Source: Sulfurimonas sp.
GTDB lineage: Bacteria; Campylobacterota; Campylobacteria; Campylobacterales; Sulfurimonadaceae
NCBI RefSeq assembly: GCF_019429335.1
Contig: NZ_JAHYJB010000007.1
Coordinates: 1 to 64,000, forward strand
Length of the DNA: 64,000 bases
Reading direction: 5' to 3'
Shown here: positions 1,852-62,786 of the stretch, piece by piece
Layout of the letters: every line of letters begins with the position of its first letter
Numbering within the stretch: position 1 is the first letter of the stretch
Program-made: the position numbers and the translations under genes
Notes under the pieces: model-generated
The model's input: the letters and a program-made list of their open reading frames with translations, nothing else
What the model was told of the DNA's origin: nothing
Database searches by the model: none

Positions 1852-3297
1852 TTGGGTGAATTTATTAGCAGTGTCAACTCTATTTTAGAGACGGCTCTAT
1901 TTTTTGATATTCTTTTTGGGACAGTTGAGGGGGTGAAACTTCCGTTTTTGGTTGTTTGGCTTATCTCAGGAGGTGTTTATCTAACATTTTTAACAAAATT
2001 TATAAATGCGAGAATGTTCAGGCACTCATTCAATATAATAAGAGGCAGATACAATACCGCAGATGATATAGGGCAGATATCCTCTTTTGGTGCGCTGACT
2101 ACGGCACTAAGTGCAACTGTAGGACTTGGAAATATTGCCGGTGTTGCTTTGGCTGTTGCCATAGGAGGTCCAGGGGCTACATTTTGGATGATAGTAGCCG
2201 GCTTTTTAGGCATGAGTTTAAAATTTACCGAAGTGACACTCTCACTGCAGCACAGAGAGTTTTTAAAAGACGGAACGATTATGGGCGGTGCAATGGAGTA
2301 TCTCTCAAAAGGTTTGGCGAAAAAGGGTTATGCAGAATTCGGTAAAGTTTTGGCGGTGGTTTTTGCCGTATTTATGATTGGAGGAGCGATAGGCGGAGGG
2401 AATACTTTTCAGGTCTCACAAGCTTTAAGCGCAGTATCTCAAGAGGTGCCATTTTTTCAAGAATTTCCTATAGTATTTGGAATTATTATCGCATCTTTGG
2501 TGGGCTTTGTTATTATCGGCGGTGTTACAAGAATCGCTAAAATTACCGAAACCCTCGTGCCTTTCATGGCTATAATATATATCTCGGCATCTCTATGGAT
2601 TTTAGGAGTTCATTTTGAGAAGATAGGCGATGCCATTAGCATTATATTTACGGAGGCCTTTTCAACAAGTGCTATTTACGGCGGTGTTATCGGTTCACTT
2701 ATACAGGGATTTCAAAGAGCGGTTTTCTCAAGCGAAGCAGGGATCGGCTCCTCGCCAGTTGCTCATGCTCCCGTAAAAACAAAATATCCTGTAAGACAAG
2801 GGCTGGTAGCGCTATATGAACCGTTTATAGATACTATAGTCATATGTACTATGACAGCACTTGTAATCGTAATAACAGGTGTTTATGCTCATGACGGGGC
2901 TTATGTTGCCCTTATTGAAGCAAAGCAGGGAGCGGCACTAACAAGCGCAGCATATGGAACGGTTATAGAGTGGTTTCCTGCTATTTTGTCCGTCAGCATA
3001 ACACTCTTTGCTTTTTCAACACTGATATCGTGGTCTTACTACGGTGAGCGTGCTTGGGTCTATCTTTTTGGCTCAAAACTTTCCATTATTTATAAAATTA
3101 TGTTTTTATCTTTAACCATTATAGGAACTGTTGTGAGTACTGGATTGTTAGTAGATTTTAGTTTTATGCTTCTTCTTGCCATGGCACTTCCAAACATTTT
3201 GGGACTTTTCATATTAGGAGGGGACGTAAAGAGAGAGCTTGAAGAGTACATGTTAAAATTAAAAAGCGGTGAATTGGACAGAGAGGCAATCAGATGA
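1852..3297 (+). CDS. alanine/glycine:sodium symporter (AGCS family)
   Basis: A predicted inner-membrane carrier that imports alanine or glycine with Na+. The 481 residues are strongly hydrophobic with about ten membrane spans. The family signature GLGNIAGVALAVAIGGPGA lies at about 91-109, followed by a FWM stretch and an SSEAGIGSSPVAHA region in the middle, all typical of AlsT/YaaJ proteins. The start is taken as TTG at 1852 because AAGGG lies at 1841-1845 with suitable spacing and no upstream ATG fits. The stop overlaps the start of the next small gene by four bases, so the two are probably translated together. The exact amino-acid substrate cannot be read from sequence. Confidence 0.93.
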   Translation: MGEFISSVNSILETALFFDILFGTVEGVKLPFLVVWLISGGVYLTFLTKFINARMFRHSFNIIRGRYNTADDIGQISSFGALTTALSATVGLGNIAGVALAVAIGGPGATFWMIVAGFLGMSLKFTEVTLSLQHREFLKDGTIMGGAMEYLSKGLAKKGYAEFGKVLAVVFAVFMIGGAIGGGNTFQVSQALSAVSQEVPFFQEFPIVFGIIIASLVGFVIIGGVTRIAKITETLVPFMAIIYISASLWILGVHFEKIGDAISIIFTEAFSTSAIYGGVIGSLIQGFQRAVFSSEAGIGSSPVAHAPVKTKYPVRQGLVALYEPFIDTIVICTMTALVIVITGVYAHDGAYVALIEAKQGAALTSAAYGTVIEWFPAILSVSITLFAFSTLISWSYYGERAWVYLFGSKLSIIYKIMFLSLTIIGTVVSTGLLVDFSFMLLLAMALPNILGLFILGGDVKRELEEYMLKLKSGELDREAIR

Positions 3298-3569
3298 ATA
3301 TACTGGCGCAAAAATGCAAAGAGCTTTTGCTAAAACATAATATTAACGTGCTATCTGAGATTGATTTTGATATAAACGGAGAGATTAATACACTCTCATT
3401 TGAGTATATTATAGATGCATATATGAAAGCGTCCCACGAATCTCAACTTGTTTTTTTAACTGCTTTGGAGAGGTCGATAAAAGCCGAGGATGACGGAGCA
3501 AGAAAGTTTTTTGAGGGAATGGGGCAGCTTCTGCTGCTTATTCACCTCTCAAAAAATATTGAGGTTTAA
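3294..3569 (+). CDS. small hypothetical protein, coupled to the symporter gene
   Basis: A 91-residue soluble protein that I do not recognise. It overlaps the symporter stop (ATGA), so it is very likely real and co-translated. It is rich in charged helices, has no cysteine motif apart from one Cys near the N-terminus, no signal peptide and no membrane span. The C-terminal half contains FFEGMGQLLLLIHLSKN, a probable amphipathic helix. A role linked to amino-acid transport is only suggested by position. Confidence 0.75.
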   Translation: MNILAQKCKELLLKHNINVLSEIDFDINGEINTLSFEYIIDAYMKASHESQLVFLTALERSIKAEDDGARKFFEGMGQLLLLIHLSKNIEV

Positions 3570-3585
3570 ATCAAAAATAAAACTC

Positions 3586-3657
3586 TCACATCAAAAGATG
3601 TGAAGCTTTAGTAGCCACAGCGGCTTCAGCGAAGCTTTTTGGACTTGTTCAAAAAGC
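3586..3657 (+). repeat. dispersed structured repeat, copy 1
   Basis: TCACATC/GATGTGA (3586-3592/3597-3603) forms hairpin A. It is followed by a core at 3603-3633 that begins AAGCTTTAGTAGCC and contains AGCGGCTTCAGCG. Hairpin B follows, GCTTTTTG/CAAAAAGC (3634-3641/3650-3657), with loop GACTTGTT. The element fills the gap between two convergent genes and may serve both as terminator. Related copies lie near 37594, 42563, 57127 (minus) and 62688. Confidence 0.6.
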
Positions 3658-3664
3658 GTTCAAA

Positions 3665-4444
3665 TTAAAACTGTATCATCCCGTTAATCGGCGAAGAAGC
3701 AGTTGCATAAGGACGCTTTGCAATTCTTCCTGCCAAATAGCTCATACGTCCTGCAATAACTGCATGTTTCATAGCCTCAGCCATCATCATAGGGTTTTGC
3801 GCTCCTGCAATCGCGGTATTTGTCAGTACTCCATCAGCACCAAGCTCCATTGCATAAGCCGCATCACTTGCACATCCAATCCCTGCATCAACTATTACCG
3901 GAAGGCTTACCGCTTCACGAACAAAGACTATGTTATATGGATTTTGAATTCCAAGGCCGCTTCCTATCGGAGCCGCAAGAGGCATAATAGCATGCGCACC
4001 GGCATCCTCAAGCCTTTTTGCCATAATCGGGTCATCGGAAGTGTAAGCCATAATTGTAAAACCCTCTTTTGCAAGTATCTGACATGCTTTTATGGTCTCT
4101 AAAACATCAGGATAGAGAGTTTTTTGCGTATCGCCTATAACCTCTAGCTTAATAAGGTCTATTCCCGTAGCTTCGCGCATAAGGCGAAAAGTGGTAATCG
4201 CCTCCTCCGCTGTTACACATCCTGCAGAGTTTGGTAAAAACTTTACATTAGTCCCTTTAAATGTGTCACGAAGGTTCTCTTTGTCAGGGTCTGTAATATT
4301 TAAACGGCGAACCGCAACGGTAATAAGCTCACTTCCGCTTGCAAGCGTTGCCTCTTTTGTAGTTTGAAAATCTTTATATTTTCCGCTTCCGACAATTAGG
4401 CGGCTGTTTAACTCATATTTTCCGATTTTTAAAATATCTTTCAT
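3665..4444 (-). CDS. thiG: thiazole synthase ThiG
   Basis: ThiG forms the thiazole phosphate ring of thiamine from deoxyxylulose 5-phosphate, dehydroglycine and ThiS thiocarboxylate. The 259 residues match the family length. The Schiff-base lysine is expected at about K99 in IKLEVIGD. The phosphate-binding loops [12 protein letters not shown] and [12 protein letters not shown] of the TIM barrel are present, as is PNSAGC near 71-76. It lies just downstream of the NAD(P)HX repair gene, with nine bases between. No other thi gene and no TPP riboswitch is visible nearby, so thiamine synthesis genes are scattered in this genome. Confidence 0.96.
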
Positions 4445-16040: not shown

Positions 16041-16147
16041 AGACTCCTCTCCAGATACCTGCGGCACATAACGCTCTAAGCCGTGCTGCTGTATTCCTAC
16101 CCTGACACTGTAACTTAAAGCACCATTGCACAGGTCTAAAGAGAAGC
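16038..16147 (-). ncRNA. ffs: signal recognition particle RNA, small (4.5S-like)
   Basis: The RNA scaffold that binds Ffh and targets membrane proteins. Read on the minus strand, the apical domain shows the conserved TGTCAGG, a GGAATACAGCAGC asymmetric-loop side and the closing stem. The outer stem pairs AGACCTG with CAGGTATCT, and an inner stem pairs GCTTTAAG with CTTAGAGC. A TATAAT (16158-16153) lies about six bases before the proposed 5' end. GGAGAGGAGTCTTTTT ends the transcript in a T-run. The ends are accurate only to a few bases. Confidence 0.87.
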
Positions 16148-37593: not shown

Positions 37594-37660
37594 GTATGCC
37601 ATTGGTTAGCATACCTAAAAGCTACGAAAACTAGCGAAAGCGGTTTTTGCGAAGCAAAAA
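37594..37660 (+). repeat. dispersed structured repeat, copy 2 (diverged)
   Basis: GTATGC/GCATAC (37594-37599/37609-37614) as hairpin A, a core with AGCTACGAAAACTAGCG and AAGCGG (about 37619-37643), then TTTTTGC/GCAAAAA (37644-37650/37654-37660) as hairpin B. The architecture matches the copies at 3586, 42563, 57127 and 62688, while the core is the least similar. Confidence 0.4.
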
Positions 37661-42014: not shown

Positions 42015-42551
42015 ATGAAGAGGATTTTAATCCTTCACGGCTGGGGCGGGAGTGATTTTCCGCACTGGCAGAGTTGGTTGGCATCTGAGATTGCAAAAGA
42101 TTATGGCTGTGTCAGTTTTTTAAACTTTAGTAACATTGACTTTCCAAACAAAGATGAGTGGTTAGTTGAGTTAACCAAAGAACTGGACGATTTTAAACCA
42201 GATATCGTTGTTTGCCACTCACTGGCAAATATACTCTGGTTTCATCTCTGCAATGAGTGCAAAATAGAGGAGATAGAAAATCTTTTTCTTGTTGCTCCTC
42301 CAAGTTTGGAGTGCAGCATAGAGGAGCTTGAGAGCTTTTTTCCATGCAGTGTTCCTAAAAAACTTTATGCAAAAAAGCAGATGCTTATTACCTCGACTAA
42401 CGATCCTTACATGTCACAAGATGAAGCTATAGAACTTCAAAAAACACTCGGTATAGAGATGAAAGTTTTAGAAAACGCAGGACATATAAACAGAGACAGC
42501 GGTTACGGCGAATGGCGATGGATACTAGAAGAGATAAAAAACACACAATAA
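42015..42551 (+). CDS. alpha/beta hydrolase, RBBP9/YdeN family
   Basis: A 178-residue serine hydrolase-like protein. ILILHGWGGSDFPHWQSWL opens the fold. The nucleophile is the serine in VVCHSLANILW, with Asp in SSTNDPYM-like TSTNDPYMS and His in ENAGHINRDSGYG, giving a complete triad. The substrate is unknown. It follows gltX with four bases between. Confidence 0.88.
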   Translation: MKRILILHGWGGSDFPHWQSWLASEIAKDYGCVSFLNFSNIDFPNKDEWLVELTKELDDFKPDIVVCHSLANILWFHLCNECKIEEIENLFLVAPPSLECSIEELESFFPCSVPKKLYAKKQMLITSTNDPYMSQDEAIELQKTLGIEMKVLENAGHINRDSGYGEWRWILEEIKNTQ

Positions 42552-42562
42552 TCTGCCGCTTT

Positions 42563-42624
42563 GTACAGCAAGCTTCAGTGCCTTAGCAGCTAGCGCAGTA
42601 TAAAGGGACTTTGTTCCTTTATAC
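42563..42624 (+). repeat. dispersed structured repeat, copy 3
   Basis: The core at 42569-42598 differs by only three bases in 30 from the minus-strand copy at 57172-57143 (AAGCTTCAGTGCC, then TTAGCAGCTAGCGCAG). It is followed by hairpin B, GTATAAAGG/CCTTTATAC (42598-42606/42616-42624), with inner GAC-TTT-GTT. It lies between two co-directional genes. Confidence 0.65.
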
Positions 42625-42649
42625 GTAATAAAATAAAAAAAAGAGTCTT

Positions 42650-44482
42650 ATGATACAACTAATAAACATCTCAAAGAGTTTCGGCAAACAGGAGCTTTTT
42701 AGCAATCTTAACTTTAAACTAAACTCAGGCAACAAAGTAGGTTTAGTAGGCCGTAACGGAAGCGGAAAATCAACGCTTTTTAAGCTTATACTGCGTGAAG
42801 ATACTCCCGATAGCGGCGAAGTAGTTATACCAAAAGGGTATAAAATAGGTGCCCTAAAACAGCATCTTGTCTTTACCGAGACCACGCTAAGAGAAGAGGC
42901 GGCGTTAGCGCTTGAAGAGGAAATGAAGTATGATATCTACCGCGTAGAGAAGATTTTATTTGGTTTGGGTTTTACGCAAGAAGATTTAGAAAAAGACCCG
43001 CTCTCCTTCTCTGGCGGTTATCAAATCCGCATAAATCTTGCAAAACTTTTAGTAACTGAACCGAACCTGCTGCTTCTTGATGAGCCTACAAACTACCTCG
43101 ACATCCTCTCACTTAGATGGCTGAAGAGTTTTTTAAAAGCATTTCAGGGTGAGGTAATTCTTGTTACTCACGACAGAGATTTTATGGACGCCGTCACTAC
43201 TCATACCATGGGGATTGTACGCAGAAATCTAAGAGTTATTGCCGGAGATACGCACAAATACTACGAGCAACTCCAAGCCAATGATGAGCTGCACGAGAAA
43301 CAGAAGATAGCGCAGGATAAGAAAGTAAAAGAGCTTGAGGATTTTATTGCAAAAAACAAAGCACGTGCTTCAACCGCCGCTCTTGCACAGTCGAAAGTAA
43401 AACAGCTTGAGAAGATGGATCTGCTTCAAGATTTAGGGTACGACTCATCTTTGGAATTTGATTTTAACTACAAAGATACTCCGGCAAAAGTTCTGCTTGA
43501 TGTTAAAAATCTAAGTTTCGGATATACGCTTGAGAACATTCTTTTTAAAAATATCTCTTTCGTGCTTGAGAAGGGCGAGTGTCTTGGGATTATCGGAAAA
43601 AACGGTAAAGGTAAATCAACCCTGCTAAATACAATTGCAGGAGAGTTAAAGCCGCTTAGCGGTGAGGTTCATATGCACACAAGCACAGCATTTGCGCACT
43701 TCGGGCAGACAAATATCGCAAGACTGCATCCAAACAGTAGCGTCTTGGACGAGATTCACTCCGCCAACACGAAACTCTCCGCGCAAAATATTCGCTCTAT
43801 TGCGGGTTCTATGATGTTTAGCGGAGATAGTGCAGATAAAAAAGTCTCTCTTCTCTCAGGCGGCGAAAAAAGCCGTGTCATGCTAGGGCAAATTTTAGCT
43901 CGTGATGTAAACCTCCTCTTTTTGGATGAGCCTACAAACCACCTAGACATGGACTCCATAGAAGCACTGACGGTAGCAATCCAAAACTTCAAAGGCTCCG
44001 TAATCGTCGTAACCCACTCCGAAGAGCTGCTACGCCGTACATGTGACAGGCTTATCATATTTACAAAAAACGGTGCAGAGTATTTTGACGGAGGGTATGA
44101 CCTGTTCTTAGAAAAAATGGGCTGGGAAGAGGAAGAGAATGAAGAGAAGGGCAAGCAAAAGCCCAAAACAAACTTTAAAAATAGCAAAAAAGCAAAAGCT
44201 GACCTAATTAGAGACAAAAACAAACTAATTTCGCCGATGAGAAAAAAGATTGACAAACTTGAAGCCTCTATCATAAAGAGCGAAGAGACTTTAGCTTCTC
44301 ATCAAAAAAAGCTTCTTGAGGCAACAACAAAAGGTGACAGTTTTAAAATTATAGAGTTTTCAAAACTAGTCTCTTTAGAGCAAAAAGAGGTTGAGAAGAT
44401 GTTTGAACTCTTAGAGATTTTACAAAATGAATTTGATGAGATTACAAACGACTACGACAAAAAGATAGCAGAAGTTGAGTAG
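42650..44482 (+). CDS. ABC-F family ATPase (Uup/EttA-like translation factor)
   Basis: A 610-residue soluble protein with two ABC domains and no membrane part. First domain: GRNGSGKST, LSFSGGYQIR, LLLDEPTNYLD. Second: GKNGKGKST, LLSGGEKSR, LFLDEPTNHLD. A P-site tRNA interaction linker (about 225-275, KARASTAALAQSKVKQLEKM) lies between. A C-terminal coiled coil of about 100 residues follows, as in Uup. ABC-F proteins act on ribosomes or recombination intermediates; the exact subtype is not clear. Confidence 0.92.
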   Translation: MIQLINISKSFGKQELFSNLNFKLNSGNKVGLVGRNGSGKSTLFKLILREDTPDSGEVVIPKGYKIGALKQHLVFTETTLREEAALALEEEMKYDIYRVEKILFGLGFTQEDLEKDPLSFSGGYQIRINLAKLLVTEPNLLLLDEPTNYLDILSLRWLKSFLKAFQGEVILVTHDRDFMDAVTTHTMGIVRRNLRVIAGDTHKYYEQLQANDELHEKQKIAQDKKVKELEDFIAKNKARASTAALAQSKVKQLEKMDLLQDLGYDSSLEFDFNYKDTPAKVLLDVKNLSFGYTLENILFKNISFVLEKGECLGIIGKNGKGKSTLLNTIAGELKPLSGEVHMHTSTAFAHFGQTNIARLHPNSSVLDEIHSANTKLSAQNIRSIAGSMMFSGDSADKKVSLLSGGEKSRVMLGQILARDVNLLFLDEPTNHLDMDSIEALTVAIQNFKGSVIVVTHSEELLRRTCDRLIIFTKNGAEYFDGGYDLFLEKMGWEEEENEEKGKQKPKTNFKNSKKAKADLIRDKNKLISPMRKKIDKLEASIIKSEETLASHQKKLLEATTKGDSFKIIEFSKLVSLEQKEVEKMFELLEILQNEFDEITNDYDKKIAEVE

Positions 44483-56589: not shown

Positions 56590-57093
56590 TTATTTAACTG
56601 CGGCGATTGCAGCATCGTAGTTTGGCTCTTCTGTGATTTCCGGAACAATCTCTTTATAAGTAACAACACCATCAGCGTCTACTACGAAGATTGCTCTACA
56701 TGTAACACCGGCAAGAACAGAACCGCCAAGTAAAACACCGTAAGCGTTAGCGAAATCTTTGTTTCTGAAGTCAGATGCAACAGTCAACTTATCGATTCCC
56801 TCTGCAGCACAGAATCTTCCTGCAGCAAATGGTAAATCCATAGAAACAACAGTAGTTTCAACACCCTCTAATGAAGCTGCTTTGGCATTGAAGTTGCGAG
56901 TCTCTGTAGCGCATACGCCGGTATCTAATGATGGAACAACTACAATCAGTTGCTTAACTCCTTGAGCGCCACCAACTACTACATCACCTAAACCAGCCGA
57001 ATTTACGACTGTAACTTCAGGTGCTTTGTCACCTACATTTACCTGATTTCCTAATAACTCTACGTCTGTACCCTTGAATTTTGTAGTTGCCAT
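56590..57093 (-). CDS. tpx: thiol peroxidase Tpx
   Basis: Atypical 2-Cys peroxiredoxin reducing peroxides with thioredoxin. The peroxidatic C61 lies in PSLDTGVCATETRNF and the resolving C95 in GRFCAAEG, at the same numbers as in E. coli Tpx. The length is 167 residues. RBS AAGGAG precedes the ATG. Its 5' region holds a copy of the dispersed structured repeat and a TTGACAC/GTGTCAA palindrome. Confidence 0.97.
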   Translation of the reverse strand: MATTKFKGTDVELLGNQVNVGDKAPEVTVVNSAGLGDVVVGGAQGVKQLIVVVPSLDTGVCATETRNFNAKAASLEGVETTVVSMDLPFAAGRFCAAEGIDKLTVASDFRNKDFANAYGVLLGGSVLAGVTCRAIFVVDADGVVTYKEIVPEITEEPNYDAAIAAVK

Positions 57094-57126
57094 TTTGGCT
57101 CCTTAATAATATTTTAAACGATGTCG

Positions 57127-57187
57127 GAGGTAACTCCACCATCTACGCTAGCCGCTAAGGCACTAAAGCTTGACACATTCGTGTCAA
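57127..57187 (-). repeat. dispersed structured repeat, copy 4, upstream of tpx
   Basis: On the minus strand: hairpin A TTGACAC/GTGTCAA (57187-57170, loop GAAT), core AAGCTTTAGTGCC then TTAGCGGCTAGCG (57172-57143), and hairpin B around GGAG/CTCC with outer GATG/CATC. The core matches the copy at 42569-42598 in 27 of 30 positions. It would lie in the tpx leader if transcription starts at the TATACT near 57218. Confidence 0.65.
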
Positions 57188-62687: not shown

Positions 62688-62761
62688 GCAACAAGATTGC
62701 GTGGGCTTAATGCCGAATTAAACAAAGCGTTAGCGTAGCTAAATGGGCTTTGCTCATTTAG
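62688..62761 (+). repeat. dispersed structured repeat, copy 5
   Basis: GCAA/TTGC (62688-62691/62697-62700) as hairpin A, a core with GGGCTTAATGCC and AAAGCGTTAGCGTAG (62703-62738), then CTAAATG/CATTTAG (62739-62745/62755-62761) with inner GGC-TTT-GCT as hairpin B. It sits between cdsA and dxr, upstream of dxr on the transcribed strand. Confidence 0.55.
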
Positions 62762-62786
62762 TGTTTTAAAATAAAATAGTATCAAA

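Follow-up and report, generated by a model that had tools for sequence, protein, structure and literature searches.

The 64,000-nt window analysed here, from a Sulfurimonas-type genome, carries copies of a real family of folded intergenic elements of about 70 nt. These elements consist of two covarying hairpins and a covarying pseudoknot, are gained and lost at individual gene junctions, and keep their fold on a defined strand whatever the direction of the neighbouring genes. With modest confidence, we regard them as small non-autonomous mobile elements that would be active as their own folded single strand and would often reside in mRNA leaders and operon spacers.

Two covariance models were used, one built from copies in the same genome (R1) and one from copies in relatives (R2). 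About 40 places in the 2.06-Mb window genome were matched by these models, and the 24-base core pattern GCTTTAGTGCCTTAGCGGCTAGCG with at most 3 mismatches occurred 13 times compared with 0 for a reversed control pattern, so the family cannot be attributed to chance. The scan of the genome and its relatives that a first-pass annotation of the window had suggested thus turned up numerous additional copies, and their covariation is very strong. Relatives carried 0-36 copies each; at E ≤ 0.01 copies were present in 21 of 24 relatives of the same genus (1 to 35 per genome) and in 1 of the 16 other genera of the order. A phylum-wide scan of 298 genomes placed the family in 13 of 58 genera, mainly in the window's own family and another family of the order, with a maximum of 36 copies among complete genomes. 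Nearly all copies belong to the Sulfurimonadaceae and a Sulfurospirillum-like family. Among the matches listed for the named GTDB collection, the exact core was confined to Sulfurimonas, Sulfuricurvum, unclassified Campylobacterota and a few Sulfurospirillum records. Spread by phage was considered and rejected, the exact core being present in only 3 viral contigs. No Rfam 15 match above the gathering cut-off was found over any window copy, and at E ≤ 10 the copies in four loci had none either, with sub-threshold chance matches elsewhere only; the known self-cleaving ribozyme classes in Rfam did not match the element. No description of these repeats in Sulfurimonas or Sulfurospirillum was found among the papers searched. 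Ordinary RNA genes are present in the window as well, namely a five-tRNA cluster (1171-1678) and a small bacterial SRP RNA (16045-16142, minus).

Features of the family in the window, with the support for each.
Feature	Position	Strand	Support
Type 1 element, best window copy	57118..57187	-	R1 E=4.8e-23, R2 E=6.2e-22
Hairpin A of this copy, TGACAC-GAAT-GTGTCA	57171..57186	-	Covarying stem
Core of this copy, AGCTTTAGTGCCTTAGCGGCTAGCGTAG, H-type pseudoknot	57143..57170	-	Covarying crossing pair; helix C CG-to-GC swaps
Hairpin B of this copy, GATGGTGGAG-TTAC-CTCCGACATC	57120..57143	-	Pairs changed on both sides across copies
Type 1 element	42553..42626	+	R1 E=4.5e-14, R2 E=8.6e-18
Type 1 element	3585..3659	+	R1 E=1.8e-12, R2 E=3.5e-17
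Type 2 (sister family) element	62688..62764	+	R2 E=2.6e-07; type 2 alignment A5 with covarying pseudoknot

The first-pass annotation had proposed five copies in the window, and those near 3586, 42563 and 57187 were borne out (R2 E=3e-17, 9e-18 and 6e-22, respectively). Its count of 27 identical bases out of 30 between the copies at 42569 and 57172 is correct by direct reading, and the ORF table confirms that all four real copies are intergenic. The copy at 62688 is indeed related, sharing the same 3' half only, and belongs to a sister family (type 2) rather than to the same family. The weak copy at 37594..37660 (+) was dropped as a member, since it matched neither R1 nor R2 even at E ≤ 10.

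The best copy lies in sense orientation 5' of a tpx-like gene (56590-57093, minus) and downstream of a tsaD-like gene, at a site that is occupied in other species too (loci L117 and L095/L056). In its core, helix C is formed by 57161-57159 with 57153-57151 and the crossing pairs by 57155/57154 with 57147/57148, and its hairpin B is preceded by AGCGTAG and followed by GT. The copy at 42553, also sense, has a degenerate hairpin A and sits between an ORF for a 178-aa alpha/beta-hydrolase-like protein (42015-42551) and an ABC-F-like ATPase gene (42650-44482). At 3585, the element has a helix C that is one pair longer (AGCC-ACAGC-GGCT) and is located between convergent genes (3294-3569, plus; thiG-like, 3665-4444, minus). 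The type 2 copy is antisense to both neighbouring genes; it starts with the 5' hairpin GCAA-CAAGA-TTGC, continues with a pseudoknot in which GGC (62704-62706) pairs with GCC (62712-62714) across the helix TTAAT/ATTAA (62707-62711/62717-62721), and ends with AGCGTTAGCGTAG and hairpin B (62739-62761).

The anatomy of type 1 was derived from 224 distinct copies, in which hairpin A, the core AGCTTYAGTGCCNNAGCGGCTAGCGTAG, hairpin B and a terminal CGTTCAAAA follow one another. Hairpin A has six pairs and, beyond a bulged C, one outer pair, and its loop is often GAAA, GTAA or GCAA. Hairpin B has 10-12 pairs with usually GGRC-TTT-GYTC, CTTG or TTAC at the apex, and the GGC-TTT-GCT and GAC-TTT-GTT apices that had been described before are real. 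In two separately gathered alignments 95-96% of stem cells were paired, compared with 68-70% after shuffling; for hairpin A alone the range over two alignments was 94-96%. The stem covariation score reached 0.738 in alignment A3 (0.218 shuffled) and 0.699 in A4 (0.221 shuffled), figures that lean towards the A and B stems because both alignments were fitted to them, and slid controls dropped to about 0.1-0.2. Across copies, 9-10 of the 10 pairs of hairpin B showed changes on both sides. A GTAG-type foot precedes this hairpin, with positions 24-27 mostly being G, T (109/156), A and G, and with GAAG, GCAG and GTAA as variants. Among the four-base loops of hairpin A, 26 of 49 were GNRA; although GNRA is enriched, GNA and T-rich loops, which suit DNA, are common too, and the loops therefore do not discriminate between RNA and DNA. 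In loci L113, L040, L109 and L087, the apex of hairpin B holds 20-50 nt of extra structured sequence, for example CGAGGTACCCCTTGAGGGTATA; the insert of L087 includes GGCACTAAATGCC, within which the core's TTTAGTGCC recurs as its reverse complement.

The AGC-rich core had been taken as unstructured, and every model that preceded our mutual-information ranking treated it as unpaired. It is an H-type pseudoknot, as supported by covariation. Over the core, pairs 10-18 and 16-22 ranked highest in mutual information. The helix C pairs in A4 were distributed as GC:89 and AU:6, and as CG:75, GC:8, UG:6 and AU:2, while the crossing pair was CG in 77, UA in 31, UG in 3 and other in 2 copies, with 31 two-sided changes; A3 is too conserved across the core to add much on the pseudoknot. 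Longer variants of helix C (AGCC/GGCT, GACC/GGTC, CGCC/GGCG) fit the same fold. The sister family has 7 exact AGCGTTAGCGNAG sites in the window genome, including the window's 62688 copy, and combines the hairpin B of type 1 with a different 5' part. An alignment of 18 type 2 copies from several genomes again gave an H-type pseudoknot, in which the loop of a variable helix is engaged by GGC/GCC, AGC/GCU or GAC/GUC pairs and 54/54 pseudoknot cells are paired. Since types 1 and 2 align by eye through AGCG(GC)TTAGCGTAG-B-CGT, they appear to be built from one 3' module and at least two 5' modules.

The neighbouring genes, named by eye from their translations, are unrelated housekeeping genes (nifS/nifU, grpE/dnaK, tsaD/tpx, secF/leuS, thrS/ilvD, nadC/flhB, yceD-like near plsX), and at the grpE/dnaK, nifS/nifU and tsaD/tpx junctions copies are retained in several species. 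Between co-directional neighbours, 97 copies were sense and 59 antisense (62% sense; p = 0.003, with related copies taken as independent), and a further 24 and 18 copies were located between convergent and divergent genes, respectively. Sense copies typically end 24-28 nt before the start codon. In divergent regions, 14 of the 18 copies were nearer the start of the sense gene and 8 of the 18 had an extended -10 motif upstream (1.8 expected), from which it follows that divergent copies are likely to lie in mRNA leaders. Upstream of antisense copies, no excess of -10 motifs was found for promoters on the element's own strand. A role as intrinsic terminator was rejected, since no T tract follows the element (T fraction 0.26-0.34, T4 in 6/198 copies). 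Replication polarity was discarded as well. The 82 of 128 copies that were oriented with the fork are close in proportion to the coding fraction of those loci (62%); orientation thus mirrors the coding bias, and there is no strong fork-related preference.

Evidence on the selected strand came from copies at corresponding sites. Fifty copy pairs have both flanking genes in common, a few of these being duplicates of one record or tandem copies. Among the stem pairs of 14 orthologous copy pairs, 33 had changed on both sides and were still paired, 8 showed a one-sided (G-U) step and 8 were broken; 7 of these 14 copy pairs are antisense to their genes. Together with the strong covariation, these changes uphold the earlier suggestion that structure is under selection. 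Counted on the element strand of hairpin B, the ratio of G-U to A-C was 94:6 in sense and 52:8 in antisense copies, orientation being called with a simple ORF picker and the excess possibly being somewhat exaggerated because the alignment tool scores G-U as a pair. With the apical wobble pair excluded and hairpin A added, the ratios were about 61:8 and about 33:8; the apical G-U itself is kept in about half of the copies. If the host mRNA alone were under selection, antisense copies should show the reverse of the G-U excess. The excess on the element strand in either gene direction therefore indicates that selection sees the element's own folded strand and not simply the host mRNA. At the nadC/flhB junction of several species, too, antisense copies keep their own-strand fold. 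That the fold is kept while the letters change points to what is probably a small mobile element acting as a folded single strand.

Gain and loss were visible at one junction, where three different species have an empty site (about 10 nt between the genes), one copy and two tandem copies. A close relative of the two-tandem species retains a remnant there that lacks the core and in which hairpin B is starting to mismatch, which hints that the parts of the element are maintained as a unit. This remnant (L333 in relative G236, about C1:2259013) and the intact tandem copies (L250 in G088) have flanks that are 93-97% identical. Tandem copies are nearly always arranged head to tail. At another locus of G236 (L252, C1:2738300-2741220), arrays of two and three elements recur with about 55 nt of flank included in the repeat, as a tandem duplication of a larger unit. 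Dispersal, gain and loss, both orientations and tandem copies support the small mobile repeat that was one of the options in the first-pass annotation. No transposase was found beside copies. As to the marks of a MITE, terminal inverted repeats and target site duplication, the element ends (TCTG... and ...CGTTCAAAA) are not inverted repeats, and no target duplication was obvious in the single filled/empty comparison. Of the 25 genomes searched, only 13 had genes for Y1_Tnp, and 20 Y1_Tnp loci from the window's own and related genomes contained neither the element by model (E ≤ 1) nor a matching GTAG hairpin by script.

According to the reading we favour, the active form would be a folded single strand with hairpin A, the H-type pseudoknot core and the GTAG-footed hairpin B, which a putative trans-acting machinery would spread to new gene junctions. 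Many settled copies would then be kept for long, their fold being preserved by paired changes. The sense copies, which form the majority, would probably be part of mRNA leaders and operon spacers, a short distance before ribosome binding sites, and a pseudoknot and hairpins in such mRNAs would be expected to influence decay, processing or translation. The sense bias, the site before ribosome binding sites, the GNRA loops and the pseudoknot favour RNA as the selected molecule; single-stranded DNA is favoured by the antisense copies, which are conserved just as well without an excess of promoters. If the RNA were incidental, the folded single-stranded DNA could be what a RAYT/IS200-type tyrosine (HUH) transposase acts on, with hairpin B and its GTAG foot as the recognised end. 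The GTAG-type foot in most copies, the own-strand fold conserved whatever the gene direction, and the dispersed, tandem, gained and lost copies agree with this, as does the occurrence of GTAG REPs in many bacteria, including epsilonproteobacteria (PMC3733652). We nevertheless consider such a REP-like DNA element rather unlikely, because none of the Y1_Tnp genes, present in about half of the genomes, has an element nearby, two genomes (G008 and G013, both incomplete) have copies without a Y1_Tnp match, PMC3733652 describes neither a pseudoknotted core nor a second hairpin for the GTAG families, and long-term paired changes at fixed sites are unexpected of inert transposon copies.

Selection of a portable cis-acting mRNA element (a decay barrier, processing site or self-cleaving RNA) only via its host operon is possible, if doubtful. 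It would fit the sense bias, the position 24-28 nt before start codons, the compact pseudoknot, the GNRA loops in 26/49 cases and the retention at grpE/dnaK, nifS/nifU and tsaD/tpx in several species, but 38% of the co-directional copies are antisense and equally structured on their own strand, and a role in the flanking mRNA leaves fold-keeping antisense copies at conserved sites unexplained. Short-loop hairpins are known targets of template-switch correction, and paired changes could in principle arise from quasipalindrome template switching in replication instead of selection on the fold. We hold this to be very improbable, since such a process is strand-symmetric whereas G-U far exceeds A-C on one strand, since the apical G-U is kept in about half of the copies, and since the covarying crossing pair in the core is left unexplained. 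A metabolite riboswitch or autogenous leader with a shared regulon is scarcely credible: conserved single-stranded bases in a pseudoknot that precedes ribosome binding sites would be in keeping with it, but the flanking genes have no common theme or pathway, and up to 36-40 copies per genome occur in both orientations. It also seems unlikely that the copies are portable RNA modules of a new, pseudoknotted class, spread through operons of sulfur-oxidising Campylobacterota and serving there as general intercistronic devices. Such a module would join a constant 3' unit (AGC-N4/5-AGCGTAG-hairpin B-CGT) to at least two alternative pseudoknotted 5' units, and might for instance block RNA decay in the 5'-to-3' direction or be a self-cleaving RNA of a new kind.

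Among known repeats, the BOX elements of pneumococci are modular and able to fold as RNA; their sequence is unrelated to that of our element, and we know of no pseudoknot in BOX. They are interspersed intergenic repeats (PMC3049150). The GTAG-tagged REP elements and REPtrons described by Di Nocera et al. 2013 (PMC3733652) resemble our element: they too are hairpins dispersed over intergenic regions, between co-directional and convergent genes, with a GTAG foot, stems that stay complementary while their sequence varies, and frequent G-T pairs. A GTAG REP is, however, a single palindrome of 20-40 bp, whereas our element has 70 nt, two hairpins and a pseudoknot, and REP dimers are usually head-head or tail-tail whereas the tandems seen here are mostly head-to-tail. 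GTAG REPs would also be expected to flank a RAYT (Y1_Tnp) gene somewhere in the lineage. Since no examined RAYT gene carries the element, we did not file it as a REP despite its GTAG foot. The bcr repeats of the Bacillus cereus group (bcr1-bcr18; PMC3446304) are likewise small and interspersed; some of them have a conserved secondary structure, they are frequent in UTRs and operon spacers, and their spread is MITE-like, but they belong to another phylum and differ in sequence. The mobile/repeat sequence candidates (MRSC) of the GC-IGR survey (Nucleic Acids Res. 2024, PMC11109978) are also multi-copy structured motifs with inconsistent orientation to genes, the fold of which may matter as DNA according to the survey authors. 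The example MRSC-65-2 differs from our element in being a single long stem, sometimes near transposases, and a search of the survey's main text for Campylobacter or epsilon found no mention. Integron attC sites go with IntI and cassette arrays; the copies of our element sit singly between unrelated housekeeping genes. Most likely, our element is of the general kind of the REP, bcr and MRSC repeats, from which it differs by its pseudoknotted core and by structural selection on a specific strand. Among the dispersed repeats of bacteria, most are plain palindromes, the conservation of which can be explained by copying alone. The present family has a covarying pseudoknot, two sister architectures that share one 3' module, and orthologous copies that keep their fold over changing sequence on a defined strand, whatever the gene direction. 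These features make it directly testable whether such repeats do anything, and the host genera include cultured organisms.

Some copies are followed by other small sequences. A second short repeat, GTTCYCTTGAATTTATG, was found at 3 places in the window genome compared with 0 for its reversed control, and at each of them (L361, C8:12519; L362, C40:10325; L363, C44:2125) it lies shortly downstream of an element of type 1 or type 2. In addition, several copies, as in loci L027, L041 and L224, are followed by further small hairpins of the form ATGGAGG-TTCCTTCAT or ATGAAGGG-CCCTTCAT, which directly precede the ribosome binding site.
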